The position numbers and the translations under genes were made by a program. From Methanobacteriota archaeon (GTDB lineage Archaea > Thermoplasmatota > Poseidoniia > Poseidoniales > Poseidoniaceae), in contig JABIHC010000082.1 of NCBI GenBank assembly GCA_018649825.1, positions 1 through 40,421 on the forward strand: a stretch of DNA of 40,421 nucleotides, in the 5' to 3' direction. Within the stretch, counting starts at the first letter, position 1, and every line of letters begins with the position of its first letter. Below the pieces are notes generated by a model. It was not told where the DNA came from, made no database searches, and saw only the letters and a list, made by a program, of their open reading frames with translations. Of the stretch, positions 6,062 through 39,607 are shown one piece after another.

Positions 6062-9000
6062 TCACCATGCTTCATCTGAAGAATTACTTGTGGGGGTTAC
6101 CATTACCGCATCAATTGCAATTTCGCCACTTCTCTGAGCCTGCATTAGGCCTAATGCTCGCTTCATGGAGTCACTCCCCCCAGTAGTCCCAATTCCCAAT
6201 TTTTCTAGAGTGACAAATATTGCAGGTAATAAGAACAAGGCACTCGCTGCAGCAATCCAAAGCAGAATAATAATTACCGTAATAAACGGTTTAATTTCGG
6301 GAATCGGAATTAAGTATGCGGTAGCAAGTCCAAGTGTGGTGACAGTTGCTGCTTCAAACAAAGACATTCCCGTTGACACGGTGGCCAGCCGTATCGCATC
6401 AATCCCGCCGCCAAGTTCGCGTATACGGTTGGATATGTGTATGGAGAAATCAACGCCCACTCCGACTAAAATAGAACCGATCATCACCGTCACTAGGGAT
6501 AATGAAACATCCTTCACAGCCATCACCAACCATTGCAGCGCAACAGTGGCAACCACCGGCGATGTAGTCCATATGGCAAAACGCAGATCTCGGAATACAA
6601 TCCCAAGAGTAATTAGTGTAAGAATAACTGCAAATGCAAGGGATGACCACTGAGAAGAAACTATCAGTTTATTGACAACAATCGCAACTGCAGCGACACC
6701 GGTTAATTTACCAGATTCGATATTACCGTCAGCATATGTCTGCTCTGAATATTCATTTATTTCCCCAACAGAACCTTGAGTTTCTTTGACTGGTAAGAAA
6801 GGCATATCAACATAAATCAGTGAACGGCCATAATCACCTGAAACGAATAATGAACGAGTTTCATCGGTAAGTGAGTCGTAAAATACATTGAGCAAGAAAA
6901 TCTGGGTTGCCTCATTTCCAGGGACCGAATCCAAGGAGAGTAGAACATTCCAAAAGGTTGCATCTTCCGATTCAGAACGATTGAAAATGATTTCACTTAT
7001 TTCTCGTATTTCATCTGGCATTGGAAGTATATTGAGTATTTCTTCAACTGCTTGATACTGTTCTTCTGTAGAGAAATTCACTTGAACACCGACTGCTTTC
7101 ATTAAGAAAACGACACTTACGCCTGTTGAATATTCAACCGTATTTATTCTCTTTTCCAATTCAGAAATCCCGCGTAAATTACGAAACGGGTCATCGTTTT
7201 CTGTATCATCATCCTGCAAATCGCCAGTGACGTTTCCCTTAACAAGAATCATCCCCACCTGACCGGCATTGAATTCGTTGGAATATTGTTTCATTTTGAT
7301 AACTGCATCCTCGCCCTCCGGCGCCATACCCAAAAGGTCAATGTTTTCTTCGACATTATCTTGACCCCAAGTTGCAGAAACCAAAATAGCTACCATGAAA
7401 ATTGCTATGACTGCGTAGTTCCATTTTATCGGTATGTCAACTGCGACATCAAAGGCTTTCAGAGGGGGGTGACTCGGTTTCTTTAGGTCTAATAGAATCG
7501 TTAAATTAGGCACCATTAGCATAGTCATTACCCAAACTGCGACGATTCCGCCAGATAGGGCAAAACCAATTGTAGCGATTGGGCGCATAGGTGTAAAAGT
7601 AAGTGAAATAAAACCAATAATTGTCGTCACCGCTGATAAGAATACGGCCTTCCCAGTAGATTCAATTGACATACGCATTTTTTCCCGTTTAGAACCCGAT
7701 TCCTCAGCATATCTATTGGTAATGTGTAAGCCATAAGATACGCCAAGTGCCAATAAAATCGGCCCGACAATAATAATCGTCATCGTAACTTCATAGTCAA
7801 TATAGCCTATCATCCCTAAAGTGATAAAGACTGAACATAATGTTGGAAGGCCAGAAATAATTACCACTTTCAATCCCTGAAGTGGATGCCAAGTTCCGGT
7901 CTGCAAAATATCACTATGGAAAACAAAAAGACCGGCAGCGACAAGAATAATCGCAATCGGGAATATTTTCCAAAACAAGGCAAAGGTGAATTCAGTTACA
8001 GTATTAGTAATTGGCACAGGCCCAGTGAGGGTCATGCTAATGTGCAACTCATTTCCATCACAATACATTGGGTCATTAACCTCGCGAATCTCTTCATCGC
8101 AATCCCAATTATTCTCAAGTCCAACCCTCTTCAATTCTGCAGTAGTTTTGTCAATAATTTCTTTCGCTGACTTGTCCTCGCTAACTGCAATGATAATTAC
8201 TGCACGGTCAAGAATCCCATCGGGCTGACCACCACTTCCTTCTATGTCTTGGGCCAATTTATCCATACCTGGTGTAGGTGAGCCATCTTCATCATACAAA
8301 TTATTTATTATTTGATCAATAGTAGTCTGAGACGGAATTGAATAAGAACCCATTACGCCATACACATCTTCAAGGCTTGAATTTGCACCAGAGGCCAAAT
8401 CTCGAGTAAGACAATCGGGGTCATCATCTCCTTGGCACCCCAACTCTCCAACCTCATGAATGAAAGCTTGAGTCACCCGAGCACTAGAAGAATTAACTTC
8501 TTTGATAAGGGTGGAAAGGGATAGAACATAAATCACATCATCACTAGGGTCTGAAATTAGTGGGTTAAGTGTTTTTTCAACTTTGTCGAACTGCTGCAAT
8601 ATCGCCTCATCAGTGATATTTTGGCCTTCGGATTCAACATAAATAATCATAACATTTGTTGACCAGTCCTCCTGAACTTCCTTTATTGCATTTGACACTG
8701 GGTCACCATCTGGCAAGTAAACATCAAGGCTACCATTTACTACCAGTGATTTCTCATTTTTTATCTGCCAAGGCATATCAGATTCTTCGCTTACATCCAT
8801 AAAACCGCTATGCCAAACGAAAAAACTAGTAATAACAAGGCTGATAACTACCATGAATAGTGGAAAGGCAGTGAGAATTCCAGTGTATCCACTTCGCTTG
8901 AACTCCCGACGAAATGCTTGAGGCGCTTCGACAAATCCTTGGGCGGTAGATTTACTGAATTCAATTGGGTCAAACCCCTTTGCAGTTGCAATGATTCGAT

Positions 9001-37172: not shown

Positions 37173-38189
37173 TTAACTCCAAGTAATTTCAGCACTGTCA
37201 GTACGCATATATTGATTGATTTTACTATCCTCAATGTTCATTTCATTGCCGCTTATGAGGCGAAGTCGCCCGAGAACTGCAATCATACTTCCATTGTCAA
37301 TACAATATTTTTTTTCAGGAACAAAACACTCGCCATCACGTTGTTCAGCCATCATGGAAGACATATTTCGCAATTTTTGATTACATGCAACACCGCCACC
37401 CAAAAGCAATTCGCTCTTACCTGTGTGAGCAAGTGCTCTTTCAGCAACTTCAACGCATGCAGCAAAAACGTGTTCCTGTAAACTCCAGCAAACAGCATCT
37501 AAGGGCGCTCCCTTTGCAACCATCATCAATGCCGCAGTAAGAACTCCCGAGAATGCAAGATCCATTCCCTGAACTGCATATGGTAAGGAAAAATCGTCAA
37601 GGCTGGAGTTTGGGTTCGCAGTAATCCATCGTAGCGCATTTTTTTCTATCACTGGTCCTCCTGGAAAAGGTATGCCCTGTTCACGGGCAAATTTATCCAA
37701 CATATTTCCAATTCCAATGTCCAAAGTTTCTCCGAGCACTCTGTACTTCCCCTCAAGACGGGCAATGATTTGGGTATTTCCACCAGATACATACAAGAGT
37801 ACTGGGTCACTACAATCACATTCTTGTCTGCCTATTTCGATGTGTGCAACACAGTGATTAACGCCAATCAATGGCACCTCCCAAGCAGTTGATATTGTCC
37901 TTGCAACAGATGCTCCAATACGTAAACAAGGGCCTAAACCTGGACCCTGCGAGAATGCAATTGCTGAAATATCTTCACTTTTCAATGAATGTTTTGCAAA
38001 TAATTGTTCGATTAATGATTGACAATTTTCAGCATGATGATCGGCAGCTTCCCGTGGATGAATCCCCCCCTTTACTGGGCGAACAAATGCCGAAGTAGAA
38101 GGTAAAGGGTTACCCTCGTCGTCACACAATCCAATGGAAAAGGTGTGCGCAGTAGACTCTATTCCGAGCGTGTAAGACATTGGTTTCAT
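37173..38189 (-). CDS. kae1: Kae1, tRNA N6-threonylcarbamoyladenosine synthase subunit
   Basis: The catalytic KEOPS subunit that adds threonylcarbamoyl to A37 of ANN-decoding tRNAs. The 338-residue ASKHA-fold protein has LGIESTAHTFSIGL, the metal-binding HCVAHIEIGR, LYVSGGNTQII, FPGGPVIEK and LLGGGVACNQKLRNM. There is no Bud32 kinase fusion, unlike in some euryarchaea, so Bud32 is elsewhere. Of three in-frame ATGs (38207, 38189, 38180) I favour 38189. It lies about 25 bases from TTCATATG on the minus strand, consistent with a leaderless transcript; 38180 is also reasonable. It is divergent from hutI. Confidence 0.93.
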   Translation of the reverse strand: MKPMSYTLGIESTAHTFSIGLCDDEGNPLPSTSAFVRPVKGGIHPREAADHHAENCQSLIEQLFAKHSLKSEDISAIAFSQGPGLGPCLRIGASVARTISTAWEVPLIGVNHCVAHIEIGRQECDCSDPVLLYVSGGNTQIIARLEGKYRVLGETLDIGIGNMLDKFAREQGIPFPGGPVIEKNALRWITANPNSSLDDFSLPYAVQGMDLAFSGVLTAALMMVAKGAPLDAVCWSLQEHVFAACVEVAERALAHTGKSELLLGGGVACNQKLRNMSSMMAEQRDGECFVPEKKYCIDNGSMIAVLGRLRLISGNEMNIEDSKINQYMRTDSAEITWS

Positions 38190-38217
38190 ATCAACTGACG
38201 AGGGCATAACATATGAA
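38184..38217. promoter_or_regulatory. Symmetrical overlapping promoters of kae1 and hutI
   Basis: TTCATAT (38185-38191) and ATATGAA (38211-38217) form a perfect seven-base inverted repeat. Each arm is a TATA-like box about 25 bases from the start codon on the opposite side, and each arm contains the other gene's start codon. Both transcripts are therefore expected to be leaderless and to compete. Confidence 0.6.
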
Positions 38218-39607
38218 CACTCCCACCCCTGCTTGCATCATGCGCACTCTATTGGTGGGATGCGGTCCCATCGCTCACCTCGCCAAAGGCAAGGGTCCAG
38301 TCTGCGGCGCTGAAATGTCAAATGTGGAAGAATTAGTAAGTCCAAAAGGCATGGGTATTTTGATTGAAAATGGCATTATCTGTCAAATATCAAATGAGCA
38401 AGAATTGCTTGAGGAATATGCTCCCTGGGTAAATAAGGGAAGCATACATTCCCCCACTTCTTCAAGAAATAGGCCGAAATTATCTGAATATACTCAACAG
38501 GACGGTACCCGCATCCTTAATTTAGGCGGCAGTGCAATTATTCCCGGGCTCATTGATTCACATTCCCATCTCCTTTGGGCTGGTGATAGGTCACAGGAAT
38601 CTCAATGGCGCGCACAGGGTAAATCGTATGCTGAAATCGCTCAATTGGGTGGAGGCATAGGGTATACTGTCGCCGAAACCCGTCAGTCATCAAAGCAAGA
38701 TTTGCTAAACCTTGGTATCGACCGATTACAAACTGCTTTGCGAAATGGCACAACAATTCTAGAGGCAAAAAGTGGCTATGGGTTAACAACTGAATCCGAG
38801 TTACTATTACTGGATGCTGCAAATGAATTGCAGAAGATTTCAGGTTTGCCAGCACTTGACCTCACTTGGCTAGGCGCCCATGACACGCCACCAAGTGCTA
38901 TGGATGCCAATCTCTCTAGACAGTCATATGTAGAATCAATCTTAAGCGAACAACTACCACAAGTATTGGAACAAAATATTGCCCGTTCAGCAGATGTTTT
39001 CTGTGAGCCAGGTTGGTTTACAATTGAGGAGACCGCTGAGATACTTACTGCTTCAAAAAAGGGGGGACTTGACCTTCGCATACATGTAGATGAGTTCAAG
39101 GATGGTGGTGGATTGGAGTTGGCAGCAGAAATTGAAGTTACTACTGCTGACCACGCTCATCATTCATCAGACGATGCTAGGCAAAAAGCCCATGATGCTG
39201 GAGTAATGCAAGGTTTTTTACCAGGGACTCCTTATGTCATGGGTGAAGAATCACCTCCATTATTACATTGTCAAAATGAAGGCTGGATGTTTAGTATTGC
39301 TACTGATTATAACCCAAACTGCATGACTTTATCCTTGCCATTTATCGGCTCCTTGGCAGTAAATAGGGGGGGTCTAGATCCATTAGCAGCTCTTGTTGCT
39401 TGTACCCGTAATTCGGGGCATACAATTGCCAATTCTTCTGCAAAACCCCATGGGATGATAGTTGAGGGTGGCATCGCAGATCTAAATATTCTTTCAAGTA
39501 GGCAGTGGCAGTATTGGTGTTTGAGTCCTGGTGATTCGCCCTTTGCTGCAACCATGATTGCAGGCGAATTGCACAAGCACAATTCTATTGGTGGAGTGAC
39601 ACGCTAA
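38213..39607 (+). CDS. hutI: Imidazolonepropionase
   Basis: It hydrolyses imidazolone-5-propionate to N-formimino-glutamate, step three of histidine breakdown. The 464-residue amidohydrolase has the metal site DSHSHLLWAGDRSQE, the substrate segment GGGIGYTV, KSGYGLTTESELLLL, the metal His in IHVDEFKDGGG and ADHAHHSSD, and the metal Asp in IATDYNPNC. The N-terminal 100 residues hold the small beta-domain with an insert (roughly residues 70-95), giving a length above the usual 400-420. No other hut genes are in the window. The start codon lies within a TATA-like element of kae1. Confidence 0.92.
   Translation: MNTPTPACIMRTLLVGCGPIAHLAKGKGPVCGAEMSNVEELVSPKGMGILIENGIICQISNEQELLEEYAPWVNKGSIHSPTSSRNRPKLSEYTQQDGTRILNLGGSAIIPGLIDSHSHLLWAGDRSQESQWRAQGKSYAEIAQLGGGIGYTVAETRQSSKQDLLNLGIDRLQTALRNGTTILEAKSGYGLTTESELLLLDAANELQKISGLPALDLTWLGAHDTPPSAMDANLSRQSYVESILSEQLPQVLEQNIARSADVFCEPGWFTIEETAEILTASKKGGLDLRIHVDEFKDGGGLELAAEIEVTTADHAHHSSDDARQKAHDAGVMQGFLPGTPYVMGEESPPLLHCQNEGWMFSIATDYNPNCMTLSLPFIGSLAVNRGGLDPLAALVACTRNSGHTIANSSAKPHGMIVEGGIADLNILSSRQWQYWCLSPGDSPFAATMIAGELHKHNSIGGVTR

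Follow-up and report, generated by a model that had tools for sequence, protein, structure and literature searches.

A conserved core promoter box midway between the divergent kae1 and hutI genes of Poseidoniales probably serves both

Poseidoniales (Marine Group II) are abundant archaea of the surface ocean. To our knowledge none of them is in pure culture, and no description of their promoters was found in the literature searched. The window, by which we mean the whole stretch of 40,421 nucleotides analysed here, comes from one of these archaea and contains two divergent genes, kae1 and hutI, whose predicted start codons at 38189 and 38240 are only about 50 bp apart, which raises the question of where the promoters of the two genes lie and whether they are separate at all. 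A sequence-only reading had pointed to an inverted repeat, TTCATAT/ATATGAA, whose arms would act as two mirror-image TATA boxes for leaderless transcripts, each arm containing the start codon of the opposite gene, with the two pre-initiation complexes excluding each other. We compared the locus with its counterparts across the order and analysed the core promoter genome-wide.

The inverted repeat is a chance match

The repeat is present in the window as a perfect 7-bp match, TTCATAT and ATATGAA (38211-38217) being separated by a 19-base spacer, although its span is 38185-38217 and not, as first given, one base longer from 38184. An ATG does lie in each arm: the minus-strand one at 38189 shares the frame of kae1, the plus-strand one at 38213 that of hutI. 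Across the 2.0-Mb draft genome, TTCATAT-N19-ATATGAA with this exact spacing is a single copy. Allowing loops of 10-30 bases, 58 perfect 7-bp inverted repeats were counted in the window, compared with 58-71 in dinucleotide shuffles. Among the 106 loci carrying the box described below, the arms match at 7/7 positions in the window alone and at 6/7 in the sole congener compared, where the left arm is TTCAAAT; no other relative with the box has the repeat at the window's spacing, and the left arm is likewise missing at that spacing from the other loci, including the next genus (L003 and L004). Being no more frequent than chance and not conserved, the repeat was rejected as a functional unit. The left arm is accounted for by kae1 codons or leader. 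Lack of conservation had been named beforehand as grounds for dropping the original proposal; it applies to the repeat, but the box within the right arm is conserved in relatives.

A core promoter box with a central C or G

Five Poseidoniales genomes were analysed, covering the window's own genus, two further genera in its family and one in the second. A de novo motif search found TTSAA(A/W) upstream of genes in three of the five, and in all five the motif is concentrated just upstream of gene starts, the pooled 5' T falling sharply at -30/-29. When all 5-mers at these positions were ranked without bias, TTCAA, TTGAA, and TTCAT came out on top; TTSAW was observed there 93 times versus 17 expected. 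TTSAA is its own reverse complement. The flanks of these boxes carry little information. In f3, an outgroup family from the same class, the TTSAA peak was not seen.

The classical TATA box of leaderless archaeal genes (Haloferax type) is short, AT-rich, and centred near -26. The Poseidoniales element resembles it as a short AT-rich box near -26 of a leaderless start, but differs in its central C/G, which sets it apart from an A/T-only, TTTAWATA-like box, and TTTAWA and TATATA are almost absent upstream of genes in the five genomes. Judged from sequence, TTSAW (TTCAA/TTGAA/TTCAT) is the Poseidoniales core promoter box, in place of the classical TATA box. A G-rich Shine-Dalgarno signal also occurs genome-wide at -12 to -8, and given both this signal and the promoter box peak, the genome appears to use leaderless as well as led mRNAs.

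The words TTTAAA, TTTATA, and TATATA are rare across whole stretches of genomes G000, G001, G004, G017, and G043 (window, L051-L070, L152-L231); in 230 kb of the window's own genome, TTTAAA occurs 22 times versus 161 for TTCAAA and 200 for TTGAAA. Since this rarity mostly follows from that of shorter words, it may be a matter of overall composition and not of false promoters being avoided.

The TATA-binding protein (TBP) was also inspected. The TBP gene of the window's genome (L051, G000:C1, ~6815-7507, minus strand) encodes a protein that matches solved archaeal TBPs and has an insertion of ~50-60 residues within its second repeat. The second TBP match also starts late, at a distance from the first, in the other Poseidoniales examined, whereas the two repeats of the TBP of outgroup f3 lie close together. 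The window's genome has a second, partial TBP-family match (G000:C96:18250-18384, 24.5 bits). The unusual second repeat may go with the changed promoter box.

One box between two starts

Divergent, neighbouring kae1 and hutI genes were found in ~113 distinct loci from both Poseidoniales families, these being the loci where both ends could be read; in the four loci inspected from outgroup f3, the kae1 flanks gave no hutI match. The features of the window's copy are listed in Table 1. The imidazolonepropionase function of the hutI-like protein is likely but not certain, as its TIGR01224 score lies just under the NCBIfam cut-off.

Table 1. Features of the kae1-hutI locus, in window coordinates
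Feature	Position	Strand	Basis or remark
kae1, KEOPS tRNA threonylcarbamoyltransferase subunit	37173..38189	-	TIGR03722 437.6 bits, cut-off 375
Left arm TTCATAT	38185..38191	+	overlaps kae1 ATG 38189 and the next codon; not a conserved element
GAGGG, Shine-Dalgarno-like	38200..38204	+	8 bases before ATG 38213; strongest argument for a start at 38213
GTTCATATGYTATRCCC, conserved block around box	38202..38218	-	own and next genus; L001-L004 aligned by eye
Proposed shared core box, TTCAT on kae1 strand (ATGAA on hutI strand)	38213..38217	-	de novo TTSAW motif; 106/113 loci
In-frame upstream extension MNTPTPACI from ATG 38213	38213..38239	+	probably untranslated
hutI-like imidazolonepropionase, start ATG 38240 (MRTLLVG)	38240..39607	+	TIGR01224 297.0 bits, cut-off 298.15

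The sequence-only reading had assigned the starts to the two ATGs of the repeat arms, which is only in part borne out. HutI begins with M/V-R in most relatives, which matches ATG 38240, and the box is 22-23 bp away. In two close pairs, 5/5 substitutions in the 27 bases 38213-38239 are nonsynonymous, with none at codon position 3, compared with 43/74 at codon position 3 in the next 240 bases. ATG 38213, which lies inside the box, is therefore probably not the hutI start. For kae1, comparison of relatives leaves two candidate starts, ATG 38189, which would put the box at -28, and ATG 38180, which would put it at -37; a further ATG in frame, 38207, is less likely. The congener has TTG at the position of 38189, and the next genus has a counterpart of 38180 only. 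The box distance of kae1 is indeed of the leaderless type, as had been proposed for both genes. Because the hutI start most likely lies 27 bases further downstream than proposed, the same right-arm box could serve hutI from the other side.

A single core box lies midway between the divergent starts in 106 of the 113 loci, six of which count only through the variants TTAGA or TTAAG. In the window, TTCAT stands 28 bp before kae1 ATG 38189 and 23 bp before hutI ATG 38240 (-27 to -23), and its start codon spacing is that of the commonest class of relatives. The distance to the hutI start is 20-25 bp in all 106 and 22 or 23 bp in 100, all starts being predicted and the choice of hutI start having favoured M/V-R codons near the usual box distance. 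From the 5' T of the box to the kae1 start, the distance is mostly 27-31 bp (peak 28-30), and smaller groups of loci have it at 35-37 or 39-41. Shine-Dalgarno-like sequences accompany 9/11 kae1 starts more than 38 bp from the box, while 58/69 of those at 27-31 bp are without one. As many of the ~113 loci are related, which is only partly corrected by using 39 representatives sharing <55% identity, we note that a strict box at offset 21-24 was found in 26 of these 39 versus 0.9 in shuffles. In four loci a second hutI-strand match overlaps the same site. The right arm thus holds what by inference is the kae1 promoter box, as originally suggested, but as the TTSAW element of the lineage and not a classical TATA box, and without a mirror-image partner. 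What the comparison of sequences shows is that the box exists, where it lies and that it is kept across the order.

A probable two-way promoter and its alternatives

We consider it rather probable that one shared TTSAW-type element, 38213-38217, located 23-28 bp from both starts, drives kae1 as well as hutI, and the single box probably starts transcription of both genes, one direction at a time. As the box is nearly palindromic, TBP with TFB would bind it in either orientation. Transcription would begin at or near either start codon, giving leaderless mRNAs or mRNAs with very short leaders. With only one binding site, two initiation complexes could not coexist, and those of kae1 and hutI would exclude each other by occupancy, so that the overlap and mutual exclusion originally proposed would hold, albeit through one box rather than two. 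Some observations fit this reading less well: the hutI 5' T is at -26/-27, a spacing 2-3 bp below the genome-wide mode, the window's ATGAA on the hutI strand is an imperfect TTSAW, and in several genera conservation around the box extends beyond 5 bp, so that a site for a regulator may be included.

We think it unlikely that two separate boxes are used, one per arm, with starts at ATG 38213 for hutI and 38189 for kae1, possibly as a genus-derived state. On the hutI strand the left arm does read TTCAT at -28 from ATG 38213; the congener has TTCAA there, and either sequence is a TTSAW. ATG 38213 is preceded by GAGGG and is kept in the next genus. However, the left arm itself is missing there and elsewhere, the purely nonsynonymous changes in the 27-base extension speak against translation from 38213, a box at -28 does not suit a Shine-Dalgarno-led mRNA, and ATG 38240 of the window still has the box at the 22-23 bp conserved in relatives. 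It also appears improbable that only one of the two genes has the conserved element as its promoter, the other being transcribed from an unrecognised site. The box distance is far more constant to hutI than to kae1, and of the two it is the distance to kae1 that agrees better with the genome-wide mode, but both distances are within promoter range in most loci, ~50 bp would hardly accommodate another promoter, and no separate second kae1 box was found in any of the 106 loci. Many genera of Poseidoniaceae keep a ~20-bp stretch, GGTGAGGGTTGAAGAACAATGGC. Yet it is very doubtful that the block is mainly the operator of a regulator, for example, of histidine degradation, that overlaps the promoter as well, as the sequence outside the five-base core differs between families, this core is the genome-wide promoter motif, and no regulator was identified.

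A shared, two-way promoter has precedents. In Pyrococcus furiosus, single TATA boxes (BRE-TATA-BRE) are transcribed bidirectionally, as shown for one promoter by in vitro transcription, and the divergent start sites are 49-50 bp apart (PMC6640164). As regards a BRE on either side, flanks at kae1-hutI are conserved in some genera only, and the flanks of boxes genome-wide, as noted above, are little informative. It is from this likeness, a pseudo-palindromic box midway between starts ~50 bp apart (codons here), that we infer a shared element, use in either TBP/TFB orientation, and mutual exclusion, with TBP symmetry as the cause in both systems. Unlike the P. furiosus TATA box, the kae1-hutI box is TTSAW, and whereas the second P. 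furiosus RNA studied is mostly antisense and non-functional (PMC6640164), kae1 and hutI are both protein-coding and the arrangement is order-wide. Bacterial bidirectional promoters, described by Warman and colleagues (PMC12825309, PMC10268837), share a -10 element and similarly use a pseudo-symmetric core both ways, with one binding event blocking the other; however, that core is a sigma factor element with starts usually 18 bp apart, compared with ~50 bp for the TBP/TFB-type box here. Data from Escherichia coli caution that competition of this kind has an effect only under strong activation of one direction (PMC12825309), and exclusion between kae1 and hutI may have little effect at low firing rates.

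A broader proposal is offered tentatively, as a possibility that we would not put at even chances: that a self-complementary TTSAAW element replaced TATA in Poseidoniales, perhaps with a changed TBP, and that its kae1-hutI copy is an order-wide, obligate two-way promoter, coupling a tRNA-modification gene to a catabolic one through mutual exclusion. For Poseidoniales, the lineage-wide core box with C/G at its centre, together with its order-wide midway copy, provides a concrete, testable core-promoter rule, and kae1-hutI would be a natural case of a two-way promoter for two coding genes.

In a scan of 191 divergent gene pairs, based on longest-ORF starts and strict TTSAA, a shared TTSAA 20-27 bp from both starts was found in 4, compared with 5 matches in all for 11 control palindromes; the scan is insensitive, since with these settings it missed kae1-hutI itself. 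In the kae1-hutI intergenic regions of two loci, L033 and L035, the box lies within a perfect inverted repeat, TTGATGAATCATCAA.
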